In this document: positions 12,356-62,003 of the stretch, in pieces
Numbering within the stretch: position 1 is the first letter of the stretch
How the letters are laid out: every line of letters begins with the position of its first letter
From: Weissella oryzae SG25
GTDB lineage: Bacteria > Bacillota > Bacilli > Lactobacillales > Lactobacillaceae
Direction of reading: 5' to 3'
NCBI RefSeq assembly: GCF_000691805.2
Contig: NZ_DF820492.1
Span: forward strand, 62,001-126,000
DNA length: 64,000 bases
Notes under the pieces: generated by a model
Told to the model about the DNA's origin: nothing
Databases searched by the model: none
What the model saw: only the letters and a program-made list of their open reading frames with translations
Program-made: the position numbers and the translations under genes

Positions 12356-12714
12356 GTGTTTACCTAAATATGAGTTGAGTTCTTAGCGAATGTAAGTGCT
12401 GTAATAATTGATAATAACAAATACTATTATTAATCAGTTTGTGTGAAAGTACGAGGATATTGGAGAATATCCAATTAAACTATACCTAAAAATTTTTAAT
12501 TTCATCAATGTTGACAAATAATTAATCTAATTAACGGCTGTGCGCAATGCTATTAGAAGTGATTTGCAAAAAAGAGTTTAGAGATATGCTCTTCAAAATA
12601 TTATGCTACTAAGCTTTAGAAAAAGCAGTTGATATTTTGTTTAAGTAAAGGTTAGGTATTGGAAATGCTTGTGTTCAAAAGCTAGTAAACATAAGAAAAT
12701 AAAGTCAACAAAAC
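12356..12714. other. AT-rich intergenic stretch before the R-M locus
   Basis: About 360 bases with no supported gene. An isolated TTGACA (12511-12516) has no good -10 at the proper spacing. Confidence 0.4.
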
Positions 12715-12745
12715 TTGACAAAATAAAAAGGGACGCACTGATAAT
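12715..12745 (+). promoter_or_regulatory. Probable promoter of the BcgI-like locus
   Basis: A perfect TTGACA (12715-12720) is followed by TGATAAT (12739-12745). The spacer is 18 or 19 bases depending on the hexamer chosen, longer than optimal. Transcription would then start inside the heptamer repeat immediately downstream. Confidence 0.5.
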
Positions 12746-12747
12746 GA

Positions 12748-12810
12748 CAGAGCACAGAGCACAGAGCACAGAGCACAGAGCACAGAGCACAGAGCACAGA
12801 GCACAGAGCA
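12748..12810. repeat. Nine tandem copies of a 7-bp repeat upstream of the R-M operon
   Basis: CAGAGCA is repeated nine times without a mismatch, then CAT breaks it. A perfect array of this length is a classic slipped-strand mutation site. It lies between the probable -10 and the ribosome binding site of the nuclease-methylase gene. An ATG at 12744 opens a leader frame encoding repeated TEHRAQS. With nine copies it ends at 12827; with eight copies it would end in TAA at 12850-12852, one base before the methylase ATG; with ten it would end at the TAA starting at 12815 (present numbering). Confidence 0.92.
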
Positions 12811-12853
12811 CATTTAAATTGGACTAAACCTTCTTTCTTGGAGGTGGCCTAAA

Positions 12854-14896
12854 ATGGTTAAATCATTTGAAACATCTGTAAAGCAGTGGGCTGATGAGCA
12901 GATTCGACATTTAGGCTGGCCGATAATAGGTTCAGAAGAACAAGTTATTGATGCAGATATCGAGCGTGCACTTAAAACAAACCCATCTAAAAGTGGTGGT
13001 AATGGTGGTGGAAGGCCTGACTATTCATTGATTATTGAAGACGGCGAAAAGCGAATACCAGTTTTCGTTGAATATAAGGGAGCCAAAAATAAGCTTATTA
13101 AATTAGATAAACAGAATTTAGTTATTTTACGTGATAAAGATGAGAATTTTGATTATAAGCAAGCAATTCCTCACTATGCTGTAAATGGTGCAGTCTATTA
13201 TGCTATGAATGTTGTTAACGATACAGAGTACCGGGAGGTGCTCGCAGTAGGGGTAAATGGTTTTGAATCAGCTGGGAAGATGCAATATGAAATTAGTGTC
13301 TATGTACTGAATAAAATTCATGCAGAACTACCAATCCATTTAGGTGATTTTAAAGATTTTGATTTTTTGAAAAATAAAGCAATTCAACGAGAAGCGTTAT
13401 TCAAAAAAATTGAAGCGGTTCAATTAGATCCAAAAGAAATTGAACAGCGAGCTATTCGGGATGATGCAAAAATCGAAGCAGCCTTGCAGGAGTTAAATCA
13501 AAAAATTCATGATGAGCAACAAATTATCCCAAGCCAAAGGATAAATGTAGTGGCGGGTGCCCTAATGGCAGCTATCGGCGTAAAAAATGAAGATGGTGGC
13601 TATAAGGTAGCACGGCTAAAGCCAAGTGAATTAATGGGCTCGACCGAAGAAGGAAATACCGACGGCGAAAAGATACTACGTAAAATAACTAACTCCTTGA
13701 AAAGTCGCAAATTACCAGAGAAGAAACAAAAACAGATTATCAATGTTTTAAGAAGTAATTTTGTAGATAATAATTTAAATCAAAAATCTGAATTAGAGAC
13801 ACAGACGCCAATTAGGGCAATCTATAAAGAAGTTTACGATAAATTAATTCCAATTTATGACGTAACCGGAATCAATGATTTCACTGGTAAATTATTTAAT
13901 GTAATGAATGCGTGGGTTGATGTACCTGACGGCGGAGCTAATGATGTGGTCTTAACACCACGCTATGTTACTAACTTTATGGCAAGATTAACTAGGGTTA
14001 ACATGGGAAGTTATGTTTGGGACTGGGCTTTAGGTTCTGGTGGCTTTTTGATTAGTGCGATGAACTTAATGATTAAGGACGCATATGAACACTATCCAAA
14101 TGATAAAGGGAAATTGTTTGATACCATTGAAGGAATTAAAACCAAGCAATTATTAGGGGTTGAACTGCTACCGAACGTCTATATGCTGGCGGTTTTGAAT
14201 ATGATTTTAATGGGGGATGGCTCTTCAAATATTGTTAATGATAATTCACTAACCCAATATGAAGGTAAGTACGCATACAATGAAGACCCATTTCCAGCGG
14301 ATGTGTTTTTGCTGAATCCACCTTACTCTGCTGAAGGTAACGGTATGATTTTTGTCGAGAAAGCTTTCAAAAAGCAGAAAAAAGGCTATGGCGCAGTCAT
14401 TATCCAAGATAGTGCAGGAACAGGTAAGGCCGTCGAAATAAATCAACGTATTTTAAAAGAAAACACATTAAAGGCCAGCATTAAAATGCCAGCCGATTTA
14501 TTTAAAGCTAGTGTGCAAACGTCAATATACCTGTTTGAGGTCGGAACGGGTGGCCATAAAAAGGATGATAATGTTTACTTTGTTGACCTAAGAGAAGATG
14601 GCTATACCAGAACCAATCGCAAGAAAGCGAAGATTAATTTAATCAACTCAAATGATGCAAAAGGGCATTATCAAGAAGTTGTTGACCTTATTTTGAATAA
14701 GGCTAAGAAAACGAATTACTTTAATGAGAATGATAATTATTATTTAGGGACAATTGACCCAGAGAGTGGAAAAGATTGGAACTATAACAAGAAAATTGAT
14801 ACAACTCCAACCGAGGCTGACTTCAAAAAGACGGTTAGTGATTATTTAAGCTGGGAAGTTTCTCAAATTCTTAAAGGAACGAATCAGGATTTTTAA
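12854..14896 (+). CDS. BcgI-like fused restriction nuclease / N6-adenine methylase subunit
   Basis: A 680-aa protein. The N-terminal domain carries a PD-(D/E)xK nuclease core: Pro55-Asp56 (GRPDYSLII) and Glu73-x-Lys75 (VFVEYKG). After a helical linker (about 180-350) comes a gamma-class N6-adenine methylase with motif I DWALGSGGFL (about 390-399) and motif IV NPPY (488-491). This nuclease-methylase fusion followed by a specificity gene, with no separate HsdR, is the layout of type IIB enzymes such as BcgI, which cut on both sides of a bipartite site. The ribosome binding site is TTGGAGGTGG. A heptamer array lies 43 bases upstream of the ATG. Confidence 0.88.
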   Translation: MVKSFETSVKQWADEQIRHLGWPIIGSEEQVIDADIERALKTNPSKSGGNGGGRPDYSLIIEDGEKRIPVFVEYKGAKNKLIKLDKQNLVILRDKDENFDYKQAIPHYAVNGAVYYAMNVVNDTEYREVLAVGVNGFESAGKMQYEISVYVLNKIHAELPIHLGDFKDFDFLKNKAIQREALFKKIEAVQLDPKEIEQRAIRDDAKIEAALQELNQKIHDEQQIIPSQRINVVAGALMAAIGVKNEDGGYKVARLKPSELMGSTEEGNTDGEKILRKITNSLKSRKLPEKKQKQIINVLRSNFVDNNLNQKSELETQTPIRAIYKEVYDKLIPIYDVTGINDFTGKLFNVMNAWVDVPDGGANDVVLTPRYVTNFMARLTRVNMGSYVWDWALGSGGFLISAMNLMIKDAYEHYPNDKGKLFDTIEGIKTKQLLGVELLPNVYMLAVLNMILMGDGSSNIVNDNSLTQYEGKYAYNEDPFPADVFLLNPPYSAEGNGMIFVEKAFKKQKKGYGAVIIQDSAGTGKAVEINQRILKENTLKASIKMPADLFKASVQTSIYLFEVGTGGHKKDDNVYFVDLREDGYTRTNRKKAKINLINSNDAKGHYQEVVDLILNKAKKTNYFNENDNYYLGTIDPESGKDWNYNKKIDTTPTEADFKKTVSDYLSWEVSQILKGTNQDF

Positions 14897-15525
14897 GTAG
14901 CCCTAATTCAGAAGTTGAAGAACGAGTTAGGGCGCGATATCCAGGGCTTAATAATAAAAGATTCAAGCTATCCGAGTTGTTTCAAATTAGTAACACAAAA
15001 TCATTCAATAAAGACCGTCTTACTAGAGTGAATGAAGAAAAGTATCCATATGTAACCAGAACCAGTATTAATAATGGTGTTTGGGGATATACGGGATTTG
15101 TAAATAGCGAGAACATTAATTCGGCAAAAACGTTTAGCCTTGGATTATTACAAATGGATTTTTTTTATCAAAAAGAAGCGTGGTATGCCGGACAATTTGT
15201 TAGGAAAATAATACCGAAGTTTGAAATAAACGATATTTTGGCGCTTTATTTTTCGGGAATATTAAATAAGCAAAAGTCACTGCTTTTATCGGTGCTAGTC
15301 AGGGAAGTTGACGATACTTTTAATAATATTGAAATCAATTTACCGGTATATAACACTGGAAATATTGCTTTTGATTATATGGAGGCTTATATCAAGGAAC
15401 TTGAAGCAGAGCGTATTAAGGCTCTTGAAACATATCTACAGGCAACGGGATTGAATAGCTACGTATTATCAGATGAGGAGCGACAATTAGTTGAAAGCTT
15501 TAGAAAAAATGGGGGGGGCGATTAG
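14896..15525 (+). CDS. Specificity (S) subunit, first half, truncated in the present phase
   Basis: The coding frame extends upstream of any normal start: codons from about 14893 read SSPNSEVEERVRARYPGLNN, typical of the N-terminus of such S proteins, but no ATG or GTG is in frame; the first usable start is TTG at 14977, without a ribosome binding site. The frame covers the first target-recognition domain and the central helical repeat (YMEAYIKELEAERIKALE), then ends at TAG directly after a run of eight G (15511-15518). Removing one G joins it in frame to the second half. It may act as a half-size S protein in this phase. Confidence 0.8.
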   Translation, partial: SSPNSEVEERVRARYPGLNNKRFKLSELFQISNTKSFNKDRLTRVNEEKYPYVTRTSINNGVWGYTGFVNSENINSAKTFSLGLLQMDFFYQKEAWYAGQFVRKIIPKFEINDILALYFSGILNKQKSLLLSVLVREVDDTFNNIEINLPVYNTGNIAFDYMEAYIKELEAERIKALETYLQATGLNSYVLSDEERQLVESFRKNGGGD

Positions 15526-16042
15526 TTGGCGTGAATTTGAAATTGGTTATTTATTTGACCATGTTGTACAAGGTAGACGTTTGAAAAAAGATGATCAGAT
15601 AGAAGGCGAATTACCTTTTGTTATGTCGGGCACTACTGAAAATGGTATTGCAAACTATATATCAAATAATGTTCGTATTTTTCCTGGTAATAGTTTAACC
15701 GTAGATATATTTGGAAATGTATTTTATCGGTCGTATGAATACGGAATGGGAGACGATACTGGTGCATATTGGAGTAACGATAATAAGATGGCGAAATATA
15801 CCATGTTATTTATTGGTGCATCAATGAGAATATCTTTGTTTGGACAATATGATTATGGACATAAACTCCGTAGTTCGAAATCTTTAGGGAAAAAGATTCT
15901 ATTGCCAATTGATGAAAATAATCAACCTGATTATGAGAAAATGGATAAATATATCCATGCGATCGAAAAACTTGTAATTAAAAGTGTAGTCGAATGGAAA
16001 GACAAGCAGATAGAAGCAACTAGGTCCGTTGTAAGTAAATAA
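15509..16042 (+). CDS. Specificity (S) subunit, second half, out of frame in the present phase
   Basis: After the G-run the frame reads GGAISWREFEIGYLFDHVVQGRR and continues through a second target-recognition domain (FVMSGTTENGIANYI; YGMGDDTGAYW) to the C-terminal helix (YIHAIEKLVIKSVVEWKDKQIE). The ATG at 15509 overlaps the first half and has no ribosome binding site, so independent translation is doubtful. SWREFEIGYLFDHV mirrors KRFKLSELFQIS at the start of the first half, as expected of the two repeats of one S protein. Confidence 0.8.
   Translation: MGGAISWREFEIGYLFDHVVQGRRLKKDDQIEGELPFVMSGTTENGIANYISNNVRIFPGNSLTVDIFGNVFYRSYEYGMGDDTGAYWSNDNKMAKYTMLFIGASMRISLFGQYDYGHKLRSSKSLGKKILLPIDENNQPDYEKMDKYIHAIEKLVIKSVVEWKDKQIEATRSVVSK
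15511..15518. repeat. Poly-G tract (8 G) between the two S-subunit halves
   Basis: Eight consecutive G in an AT-rich gene. Present length: frame stops at TAG 15523-15525. Seven G (or ten): one continuous S protein. It lies exactly at the junction of the two halves, where a phase switch would change the number of recognition domains. Confidence 0.93.
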
Positions 16043-26393: not shown

Positions 26394-27284
26394 ATGGCTT
26401 GGAAAGAAATACAGGAAAATATTGAACAAAATCGCTTGCGCAGAGTTGAAATAAAAGCACAAGCACAAAAAATTTTTAAGCGCGATTGGTTGGGCAACTT
26501 GAGTCTTTGGTTGATGCCATTTGTAACAATGGCCTTGGGCTTGTTTCTTTTAGGTGCTTTAATTGGTGGATTTGTGCGGGTCAAAAGTACAATGGCATTG
26601 ATTGGTGTCTTGTTATTATTCTTCTTGGGCTTATTTTTAATCGGTCTGATTGTTAGCTATGGTCTTCAAGTCATACAGTATCGAGCACTAGCGCAGTGGC
26701 GTGATTCAACAACGAAGGCAGCACCGTTTACTAGTTATTTTCAGCAATTTTTACAGATAGATTGGTTGAAGCGAAGCATTTTAGTCGCCTTTGTGACGGG
26801 AATATTTATAATTTTATGGGGTTTGTTACCTTATTTATTAAATTATGCGGCAGGTGTGCTGACCGGTCTAGCATTTATGACTGGGAGTATGGGTGCTGAT
26901 AGTTCAGGCTTGATTGGATGGGCTTGGATCGTACGCTTAGGTTCTTGGGCTTTGTTTGCTTTGTTAATCTACAAAATTTTAGGTTATACTTTTGGTCCCT
27001 ATTTTATGTTAGATGCAAAACTGCGCGACCGTAGCTTGGGGGGGAGAACGATGCTTAAGCAAGGTTTGGCTTTGGTTAAGGGGCATCGCTTTGAACTACT
27101 GACGGCAGTGGCTTCCTTTTTCTGGTGGTTTATGCTTGTGATTTTAGTAGAGTTTTTATTGTTCCGTTTTGTGAATGATATTGTAGCGGTACTGGCATTT
27201 GCGCTGCTTTGGTCATACATCGGTAGCTATATTACACTGACTTGGACTGGATATTATGAGACATTGAAGGCAACTTCAAAATAA
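26394..27284 (+). CDS. DUF975-family integral membrane protein
   Basis: A 296-aa protein with about six transmembrane helices. The N-terminal helix (RRVEIKAQAQKIFKRDW) and the terminal VAVLAFALLWSYIGSYITLTWTGYYETLK match the DUF975 pattern in firmicutes. The conserved central region YTFGPYFMLDAK-LRDRSLGG precedes a hydrophobic C-terminal half. Family function is unknown; some members lie near envelope-stress genes. It is 83 bases after the oxidoreductase stop, with GGAGAAAAGT before ATG. Confidence 0.82.
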   Translation: MAWKEIQENIEQNRLRRVEIKAQAQKIFKRDWLGNLSLWLMPFVTMALGLFLLGALIGGFVRVKSTMALIGVLLLFFLGLFLIGLIVSYGLQVIQYRALAQWRDSTTKAAPFTSYFQQFLQIDWLKRSILVAFVTGIFIILWGLLPYLLNYAAGVLTGLAFMTGSMGADSSGLIGWAWIVRLGSWALFALLIYKILGYTFGPYFMLDAKLRDRSLGGRTMLKQGLALVKGHRFELLTAVASFFWWFMLVILVEFLLFRFVNDIVAVLAFALLWSYIGSYITLTWTGYYETLKATSK

Positions 27285-43871: not shown

Positions 43872-44354
43872 ATGCAAGCACAGAAATGGCAAAAAGATAC
43901 GGTTTATTTGGAGATTGTGGGTGACCTATTGGCACACCCACAAGTTCAATTGCTTAAGAATTATGTGCAACATCATCATTCTGATCGGTTGCAACATTCA
44001 ATTGATGTGTCTTATTTAAGCTATCGAATAGCTTTACGCTATGGCCTAAATGCAACTGCGGTTGCGCGAGCCGGCTTGTTACATGATTTATTCTTTTATG
44101 ATTGGCGGGTAACTAAGTTCGAACTAGGTACGCACGCCTTCATTCATCCCCGGGTTGCTTTTAGAAATGCCGAAAAAATTACGGCACTTTCACCGATGGA
44201 AAAAGATATTATACTTAAACACATGTGGGGGGCAACCAGTGCCTTGCCGCATTTTAGAGAAAGTTTATTGGTTGATTTAGTTGATGATTGGGTTGCTTTG
44301 GTTGATTTTTTTGCCCCTAAGTGGCGAAAAATTCGCAACTTGCTAAAAAAATGA
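43872..44354 (+). CDS. HD-domain phosphohydrolase-like protein
   Basis: A 160-aa protein with the HD motif: RLQHSIDVSYLSYRIA (His), then AGLLHDLFFYDW (His-Asp) and a downstream Asp in LVDLVDDWVALVD. Family members hydrolyse phosphate esters or nucleotides with a divalent metal. The ATG at 43872 is preceded by AGGAGATGGTTTG. It is 43 bases after the methyltransferase and probably co-transcribed with it. Confidence 0.85.
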   Translation: MQAQKWQKDTVYLEIVGDLLAHPQVQLLKNYVQHHHSDRLQHSIDVSYLSYRIALRYGLNATAVARAGLLHDLFFYDWRVTKFELGTHAFIHPRVAFRNAEKITALSPMEKDIILKHMWGATSALPHFRESLLVDLVDDWVALVDFFAPKWRKIRNLLKK

Positions 44355-60744: not shown

Positions 60745-62003
60745 CAGTTAGTACATTAACTAAATATTTAAAGCGTAAATTTACAGCTGACCCATATTTA
60801 AAAGAGGTCTATTTAACGGGTGAAGTTTCAAACTATCGGCAACGACCGGGTCATCAATATTTCTCACTAAAGGATGACGGCGCAGTCATTAGCGCTACGA
60901 TGTTTAAAGGGGTATTTGATAAATTACCATTTAAGCTTGAAGCGGGGATGAAGGTGAACGTGGTTGGCTATGTTGACTTATACGGTCCTAATGGCTCGTA
61001 CAGTATTATAATTAACCGTTTAAATGTCGATGGGGTTGGTGCCTTGTACCAGGCACTTGAACAATTAAAAGCAAAGCTTGCACAGCAGGGTACTTTTAAG
61101 GTTTTAGAGCGACCAATTGAACGTTTTCCTAAAAAGATAGCGGTGATTACTTCACCAAGTGGCGCAGTCATTAGAGATATTATGACCACTGTACAACGAC
61201 GTTATCCAATTGCTGAAATTATTTTATATCCGGCAGTGGTGCAAGGAAACGGTGCAGTGCCATCTTTGCTAAAACAATTAGATTTGCTTGCTGAAAGAAC
61301 AGATATTGATACTTTAATTATCGGCCGCGGTGGCGGTTCAATTGAAGACTTATGGGCTTTTAACGATGAAACTTTGGCACAAAAGTTGTTGACGATGCCA
61401 ATGCCAGTTATTTCATCAGTTGGTCATGAAACAGATACCACGATTGCTGATTATATAGCCGATAAACGAGCAGCCACGCCAACCGCGGCAGCAGAGTTAG
61501 CGACGCCAATTCAATTGGTTGATTTATGGAGTGGTTTACAACAATTACAAGGGCGTCTGATTCAACGTATACAGTTACAAATTATGCAACAAAGGCAACG
61601 CTTGAATCGTGTAGAACAGAGTTATGTTTTAACTCAACCAGCACGATTGTACGAAGGGCACATGCAACGCTTGGACTTAGTTCAGCAACGTTTGCAGCGA
61701 GTGATGCAAGCAGAATTGCAAAACTATCAACACCGATTTGCAATGGTAGTACCAAGATTAAATCAATTAATTGAACGCTACTTAGAACGAGCAAATGAGC
61801 GGTTTAGTCAGGCAGCTAAGGGCTTGAATTTAGTTAGCCCTTTGGCAATTTTAGGACGGGGTTATAGTTTAGTGAGCAATAAAGCTGGCTTAGTTCGGTC
61901 AATTGATGATGTAGCGTTGGATGAATCAATTGAGATTCGAACTAACGATGGAATTTTAGAAGCTAAGGTAACAAGGAAAGAAGAGAGCAATGGCGAAAAA
62001 TAG
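60729..62003 (+). CDS. xseA: Exodeoxyribonuclease VII large subunit
   Basis: A 424-aa nuclease subunit. The N-terminal OB-fold (VYLTGEVSNYRQRPGHQYFSLKDD) is followed by the catalytic domain (VITSPSGAVIRDI, IIGRGGGSIEDLW, HETDTTIADYIADKRAATPTAAAE) and a coiled-coil C-terminus (about 270-380). ExoVII degrades single-stranded DNA. The start overlaps folD and the stop overlaps xseB by 14 bases. Confidence 0.95.
   Translation: MAEYLTVSTLTKYLKRKFTADPYLKEVYLTGEVSNYRQRPGHQYFSLKDDGAVISATMFKGVFDKLPFKLEAGMKVNVVGYVDLYGPNGSYSIIINRLNVDGVGALYQALEQLKAKLAQQGTFKVLERPIERFPKKIAVITSPSGAVIRDIMTTVQRRYPIAEIILYPAVVQGNGAVPSLLKQLDLLAERTDIDTLIIGRGGGSIEDLWAFNDETLAQKLLTMPMPVISSVGHETDTTIADYIADKRAATPTAAAELATPIQLVDLWSGLQQLQGRLIQRIQLQIMQQRQRLNRVEQSYVLTQPARLYEGHMQRLDLVQQRLQRVMQAELQNYQHRFAMVVPRLNQLIERYLERANERFSQAAKGLNLVSPLAILGRGYSLVSNKAGLVRSIDDVALDESIEIRTNDGILEAKVTRKEESNGEK

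Follow-up and report, generated by a model that had tools for sequence, protein, structure and literature searches.

A BcgI-like restriction-modification locus of Weissella oryzae with a putative −1 frameshift and two candidate repeat switches

In this study, we describe a BcgI-like restriction-modification locus of Weissella oryzae SG25 in which the specificity (S) frame lacks a start codon and carries a poly-G tract between its two target-recognition domains (TRDs), while a second repeat tract lies upstream of the RM gene. We favor, at a probability of roughly three in four, a combined explanation in which S is made as a −1-shifted RM-S fusion, the G tract switches the TRD content of that fusion, and the leader repeat controls RM. 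What the sequence itself shows is how the frames lie, that S lacks a start, and that the stem and the repeats exist, with repeats recurring in relatives; that a frameshift product is made, that the locus switches and which specificities result are what we infer. Coordinates refer to the window, the whole 64-kb stretch that was analyzed (positions 62001–126000 of contig C9, from the one genome assembly of 70 contigs), and all features lie on its forward strand.

The RM gene (12854–14896) encodes a protein of 680 aa with an N-terminal nuclease-like region and an N6-adenine methyltransferase bearing the motif NPPY. The methyltransferase scores above its Pfam cut-off (N6_Mtase, PF02384; 78.8 bits against 20.4), and the N terminus gives a weak nuclease match (VRR_NUC; 20.6 bits, under the cut-off of 23.8). 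Among 20 aligned RM proteins, residues E73 and K75 are invariant and D56 nearly so. PADLOC classifies RM as a type IIG REase-MTase (PDLC03616, 6.5e-164) and S as a type II specificity subunit (Specificity_II). Together with the two Methylase_S domains of S, the methyltransferase and PADLOC matches bear out the BcgI-like identity proposed in an earlier note made from the letters of the window alone. When solved structures were searched with the single RM sequence, only type I M proteins were returned; a search with a profile placed RM.BsaXI (1.6e-11) among them. A megablast of the locus against phages gave no match. BcgI and BsaXI, both type IIB enzymes, likewise pair an RM polypeptide with a two-TRD S, at a stoichiometry of 2 RM to 1 S. 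Unlike the fusion proposed for the window, however, their S is a separate polypeptide, and the relevant passages of the two reports describe neither a frameshift nor a repeat switch (PMC3874165, PMC11997821). The single-chain type IIB enzymes TstI, AloI and HaeIV resemble the fusion proposed for the window in having RM and S in one chain, but they are homo-oligomers of that chain, with one nuclease per S (PMC4027205).

The S frame lacks a start codon of its own. Its first part (14893–15525; first TRD and central helix, PF01420 at 3.5e-22) lies in the −1 register relative to RM and would be entered from RM by a −1 shift. Between the upstream stop at 14872 and a TTG at 14977, the frame contains no other ATG, GTG or TTG and no CTG, ATT, ATC or ATA, a stretch of 35 codons including that TTG. 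The TTG lies inside TRD1, and we rejected it as the S start on that ground. In close relatives, the segment GFLSSPNSEVEERVRARYP is conserved whether or not a start codon is present, and three of them do have a start at this junction (ATG in L005 and L006, TTG in L002). Codon changes downstream of the RM stop were counted across five spacing-matched loci of the window's clade, giving 26 synonymous to 43 nonsynonymous in the S frame, as opposed to 13:54 and 13:58 when either of the remaining frames is read. The segment after the RM stop thus fits the S frame. In a second clade, counted without a frame control, 64 changes were synonymous and 108 nonsynonymous.

We propose that RM is translated to its own stop and that some ribosomes slip back one base at GAT_TTT just before it. 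The candidate slip site, T_TTT at 14890–14893, reads GAT TTT TAA in frame 0 and GGA TTT TTA in frame −1. It is preceded by an SD-like AAAGGA (14873–14878) and followed, 6 nt later, by the 5′ arm GCCCTAATTC (14900–14909) of a stem whose 3′ arm is GAGTTAGGGC (14924–14933). With one G-U pair allowed for, the arms form a perfect 10-bp stem, and a 70-nt fold at the junction has an energy of −16.2 and a z score of −2.4. Aided by the stem and the SD-like element, the slipped ribosomes would enter the start-less S frame and produce an RM-S fusion, 890 aa long in the G8 state and reading QDF-LSSP across the slip site, beside free RM. Downstream stems and upstream SD-like sequences are described as stimulators of −1 frameshift signals in bacteria (PMC4066793), and both of these dnaX-type elements are present in the window. 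A dnaX-type X_XXZ_ZZN heptamer is absent from the frame change, which offers T_TTT only, and we therefore call the window frameshift-like and not a member of the dnaX type. In E. coli, tetramers of the U_UUU kind cause hardly any shifting by themselves, and with a strong pseudoknot the six that were active reached 0.26–5.6% (PMC4066793). Given so weak a tetramer, a 1:1 yield of RM and RM-S is doubtful, and the efficiency of the shift in the window may be a few per cent.

To place this junction among its homologues, we surveyed related genomes, plasmids, phages, viral contigs and E. coli. Thirty-six loci had been omitted beforehand, mostly shorter or second copies of retained loci, along with own-genome S matches and one type I M plasmid locus. 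Of the 136 loci entered, 10 had no match to the RM C terminus, and the other 126 were reduced to 89 representatives at 95% identity. S was recognized by frame length and not by domain search. On this basis it lies at −1 in 45 representatives and at +1 in 27, is fused in frame to RM in 14 (called by a length rule), and could not be judged in 3, two of them too short and one, L047, with an S cut short by the end of the record. In the natural fusions S follows RM unshifted, and Methylase_S was found in seven of the eight tails tested, L156 being the one without. Once L033 was dropped because its RM is interrupted, 71 separate RM/S pairs were left.

We scored a pair as having no start when no ATG, GTG or TTG occurred between positions −30 and +25 relative to the RM stop; L046, L059 and L107 have a GTG or TTG further upstream, inside RM. 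By this rule 26 of the 71 pairs, the window among them, have no start, and every one of these is a −1 locus. In each of the 27 +1 loci a start is present close to the RM stop. The 26 loci fall into only five RM clusters at 60% identity, so that they do not count as independent observations. A sequencing error in one genome was rejected as the source of the start-less S, which is common to loci of all five clusters. Annotation handles these genes unevenly: among 11 E. coli copies fetched, seven have S annotated from 69 or 75 nt past the RM end, three list the first half of S as a fragment that lacks an N terminus, and one has S starting inside RM.

The no-start loci also differ from the rest in what precedes the RM stop. 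A slippery heptamer (A_AAA_AAR or G_GGA_AAR) occurs within the last 10 RM codons in 20 of the 26 no-start loci versus 6 of the 45 with a start (Fisher 1e-7), against a background of 0.014 (1.4%) per locus in the same RM genes. The forms found in no-start loci are A_AAA_AAA, A_AAA_AAG, G_GGA_AAA and G_GGA_AAG, and in 18 of the 20 the distance from the end of the heptamer to the RM stop is 0 or 3 nt. G_GGA_AAG, for example, stands at the junction of phage PhiR12_3. The remaining six no-start loci carry T_TTT (the window, L003, L030, L031 and L046) or A_AAG (L039) in that position. The slip motif varies between lineages, but its place does not.

The stem and the SD-like element recur as well. Stems of 9 bp or more that begin no further than 12 nt from the RM stop are present in 19 of the 26 no-start loci, in 9 of the 18 −1 loci with a start and in 4 of the 27 +1 loci. 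Of 852 control positions taken within these RM genes, 44 have such a stem (5e-18 for the no-start loci against the controls). The seven no-start loci without such a stem include L003 and L046 of the window's own clade, where the perfect pairing is limited to 6 and 5 bp. SD-like tetramers lie 3–30 nt before the RM stop in 19 of the 26, versus 134 of 520 control positions. In a pairing test with the arms at fixed offset, covering 17 loci, all nine pairs form; all 81 of the 81 cells given by the nine distinct arms were paired, a result that 1 of 5000 partner shuffles reached. The loci for this test were chosen by hand, including the start-bearing L002 and L005 and leaving out, among others, L003, L041, L046, L059, L063, L075, L106, L107 and L109, and each 3′ partner was the best of many positions, so that 81/81 overstates its weight and the stem control over all loci is the reference.

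Taken as a model for the window, these features lead us to infer that programmed −1 frameshifting makes RM and RM-S from one message. It is improbable, in our judgment, that S is instead a separate protein, made without any frameshift when ribosomes coupled to RM translation restart at an internal codon or a non-canonical one, such as TTG 14977. Coupling is common in related systems, as in EcoKI hsdM/hsdS (PMC3510504), and both the +1 loci, every one with a start near the RM stop, and the relatives L005, L006 and L002 show that usable starts can exist at this place. However, the 34 S-frame codons ahead of TTG 14977 hold no standard or near-cognate start and are constrained in the S frame, the TTG itself falls within TRD1, and the no-start loci are exclusively −1 and enriched in slippery heptamers and stems. 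A frame change produced by RNA polymerase slippage, and not by the ribosome, is very unlikely. The A7 and T5 runs at some junctions would suit it, but polymerase slippage usually needs longer runs than the G_GGA_AAG or T4 sites offer. Moreover, the stem and the SD-like element are known stimulators of ribosomal shifts (PMC4066793).

Several known systems bear on whether an RM-S fusion made by frameshifting is plausible. Because BcgI and BsaXI use 2 RM to 1 S, a shift that supplied both RM and RM-S from one gene would be useful. For EcoKI, HsdM and HsdS have been joined by engineering into a fusion that is functional in vivo but requires extra HsdM in vitro (PMC3510504). Signals like that of dnaX combine a slippery heptamer by the stop, a stem and an SD-like element, as do most of the no-start relatives (PMC4066793); the window differs in having a tetramer, and whereas the E. 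coli dnaX shift shortens its protein, the shift here would add a specificity subunit. A parallel for the missing start is found in Helicobacter pylori, where HP1472/HP1471 is reported to have a stop after RM, no S start codon and a poly-G tract in S, a layout that it and JHP1365/JHP1364 (Hpy99XXII) share with the window (PMC3936762). The authors of that study considered the missing start the most likely reason for inactivity and added a ribosome-binding site and a start, whereas in the window we would explain the start-less S by −1 frameshifting.

Further downstream, a run of eight G occupies 15511–15518. It can be placed at the TRD1/TRD2 junction because the halves on both sides match Methylase_S above the cut-off (PF01420 at 3.5e-22 and 1.9e-9), the second TRD extending from 15509 to 16042. 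With G8, the S frame terminates as KNGGGD-TAG (stop at 15523–15525); with G7 or G10, it reads through across the second TRD to a stop ending at 16042. The short form also results from G5 and G11, and a frameshifted tail from G6, G9 and G12. The earlier note had reported eight G at the junction of two specificity domains, with the same outcomes for G8, G7 and G10, and our frame analysis and the flanking Pfam matches agree on both points. In the G8 state, TRD2 shares its frame with an ATG at 15509 whose G opens the tract, and a separate TRD2 half-S from this codon is conceivable; no clear SD was seen before it. The window has no other G or C run of at least 8, and its only remaining runs of at least 6 are a G7 (27038–27044) and a G6 (44227–44232). 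In the 2.13-Mb genome, searched on both strands, there are three tracts of G8 or longer (four overlapping matches), and a single run therefore proves little and could be chance.

What makes the tract significant is its context in relatives, where non-triplet repeats of unrelated units recur at the same TRD1/TRD2 junction; on this evidence we rejected a chance run. The junction carries G8 in L003 (A. yilanensis) and G9 in its near copy L004; G7 in L046 (L. manihotivorans), L031 and L035; and G9 in L109. Longer units are found in L005 (Convivina praedatoris; (ACAGA)12), L102 ((CAGAG)18), L107 ((GCGGACTC)6) and L038, an RM-S fusion with (GACA)17. All of these unit lengths are indivisible by three. 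Nine of the 14 non-redundant repeats in the S zone lie 552–629 nt after the RM stop (binomial p 4e-8, for an interval picked after the data were seen). The majority of homologues have no junction repeat, S-zone repeats coming from 14 of the 89 representatives. TRD2 is in frame in 8 of the 10 non-redundant repeat-bearing centers and out of frame in the other two, the window and L038. Such recurrence with non-triplet units is, at the level of sequence, the signature of a contingency locus, and the G8 tract is very probably a phase-variable switch. Among relatives, polymorphism of tract length was seen in the upstream repeats, and not in the central tract within one species.

If so, the length of the tract would decide where the fusion ends, either after TRD1 (G8, as assembled) or with TRD2 included (G7 or G10, about 1062 aa). 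Through slipped-strand changes the locus would then alternate between two enzymes, one with a single TRD that should pair up on a palindromic site and one with both TRDs for a bipartite site, and the product that switches is probably RM-TRD1 versus RM-TRD1-TRD2 rather than free S. The one-TRD/two-TRD mechanism is already known from HpyUM032XIII of H. pylori UM032, a BcgI-like system in which the S gene is split by G12. There, RM with S1 (G12) methylates the palindromic CYAN7TRG, S1 and S2 joined at G11 yield CYAN7TTC, and S2 with RM but without S1 has no activity (PMC4450513). The switch in the window would be a further case, with the same RM fusion, poly-G split of S1 and S2 at the TRD junction, and one- and two-TRD forms, but with G8 in place of G12/G11 and with specificities that are predicted here and were shown by experiment there. 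Section 10 of that report does not discuss a start for S1 (PMC4450513). NgoAV of Neisseria gonorrhoeae, in which a poly-G tract in the S gene alters the methylated motif, is a Type I system (PMC6789123), and HpyUM032XIII is the closer precedent.

These comparisons support in part the interpretation offered in the earlier note, which held that poly-G tracts in S genes change specificity because half-size S proteins can dimerize, with NgoAV as the example, and that the locus switches. A change of specificity by a half-S has the UM032 experiment behind it (PMC4450513), although the NgoAV example belongs to Type I. Switching gains from the frame analysis and the recurrent non-triplet repeats; as the S frame is start-less, the product that switches is probably not a free S protein. 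Neither the missing S start nor the second repeat tract upstream of RM had been mentioned.

Two other readings of the tract have to be weighed. One is an ON/OFF switch, in which the G8 half-S would be inactive and only the two-TRD form would work. Repeat tracts often silence genes, and we hold this alternative to be possible but tentative. The half-S of UM032, however, is active with its own palindromic motif (PMC4450513), and natural one-TRD fusions exist in L032 and L040, whose open frames of 863 and 883 aa and Methylase_S tails resemble the 890-aa G8 product. The second reading, that G8 is a fixed state reflecting a decayed S gene or an assembly miscount, we regard as unlikely. It draws on the single assembly of 70 contigs and on the two repeat-bearing centers in which TRD2 is out of frame, one of them the window itself. 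On the other hand, the Methylase_S match is intact in both TRDs, and decay would not be expected to place differing repeat units at the same junction with 8 of 10 in frame. A fusion whose TRD content is switched by the tract is the reading that we prefer. RM fused in frame to a single TRD, followed by a stop, was seen in five loci (L032, L040, L067, L088 and L112), with Methylase_S in each tail.

The second repeat lies in a leader ORF upstream of RM (12744–12827; 27 aa, ATG at 12744, stop at 12825–12827). Just inside it is a perfect tandem repeat, (ACAGAGC)9.4, at 12747–12812. As assembled, the ORF stops 29 nt before the RM ATG, a register that we describe as off-like; in one of the three registers, it runs to a TAA beginning 4 nt before the RM ATG. 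A predicted hairpin, ACCTTC/GGAGGT (12828–12845), would cover the RM Shine-Dalgarno sequence GGAGG, and no terminator-like site was found at 12500–12900 of the window. The (ACAGAGC) repeat looks like a second switch, judged by its registers and position, and RM is probably under further control, on/off or high/low, through the leader ORF. The leader of pil1 in Streptococcus gallolyticus is comparable in that a non-triplet repeat in a leader peptide precedes the regulated gene (PMC3894217), and in the window, too, the register of the repeat sets where the leader ends relative to RM. It differs in that pil1 is a pilus under attenuation, whereas the window has a restriction system with a hairpin over the SD.

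Other repeats stand upstream of RM in relatives, namely (AACAC) in L031, (ACTCA)24 in L035, (GAAC) in Ligilactobacillus salivarius plasmids and (TCACAGC) in L090. In L043, L048 and L107, C7/G7 runs lie upstream. Registers were worked out for the repeat of the window, for the four named here and for that of E. coli. In one register, the leader ends at −4 relative to the RM ATG in the window, −2 in L031, −3 in L035, −2 in L049/L050 and +5 in L090, where, as in L031, the available DNA begins inside the repeat and the leader start is not visible. In L. salivarius, the 17 (GAAC) copies of UCC118 put the leader end at −2 and the 25 copies of IBB3154 put it at −109. Among the megaplasmid loci of this species (L049–L052), CECT 5713 also has 17 copies, and LPM01 has about two units and an interrupted RM. 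Hairpins are predicted in the leaders of L035, L050 and L048; in the window, the one over the SD is the only one.

The E. coli prophage relatives take a different form, in which the RM frame is continuous with a (CAGCGAC)n tract. Matches occur in 29 E. coli genomes; in 11 of these that were examined, and in phage PhiR12_3, the longest stretch without interruption comprises 31 to 88 copies. Across 14 such loci, viral contigs included, an ATG in the RM frame is present in eight, no start in five and only a GTG in one. The copy number varies between strains with nearly identical RM-S DNA (L071–L081, L068). Antisense to the (CAGCGAC) stretch, a YXWGXW repeat-containing or hypothetical protein is annotated, which may be spurious.

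One broader implication of our study is that frameshifting may not be peculiar to the window. We lean toward the view that a widespread BcgI-like lineage makes S obligatorily as RM-S by −1 frameshifting, which would give 2 RM to 1 S from one gene, while the leader-ORF and inter-TRD repeats would control level and specificity independently; the same account would explain HP1471. The lineage would range over Lactobacillaceae, another genus within that order, prophages of E. coli and, judged by eye, an Acinetobacter plasmid. In the literature on frameshifting in restriction systems, we found no case of programmed frameshifting that sets the stoichiometry of restriction-enzyme subunits. In one study, a fusion of C protein and REase was tested and no frameshift product was in evidence (PMC3850674). 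A survey of frameshift motifs nowhere uses the words restriction, methyltransferase, methylase or endonuclease in its main text (PMC4066793), and where the GeneTack survey mentions restriction or methyltransferases (12 of 16 places), it deals with cloning and with the phase variation of type III systems (PMC3711429). As far as the searched literature shows, a frameshifted RM-S would be new, whereas the poly-G kind of switch is already known. If our explanation is correct, type IIB S genes that look broken or start-less, including the one in H. pylori, may work via frameshifting, genome annotation mis-calls such genes, and three separately tunable recoding or hypermutable steps are linked in one operon.

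Finally, the same genome contains another arrangement of specificity genes. On contig C1 (15769–20471), a two-TRD S gene on the reverse strand lies close to a half-length S on the forward strand, and the pair may be an inverting type I specificity locus.
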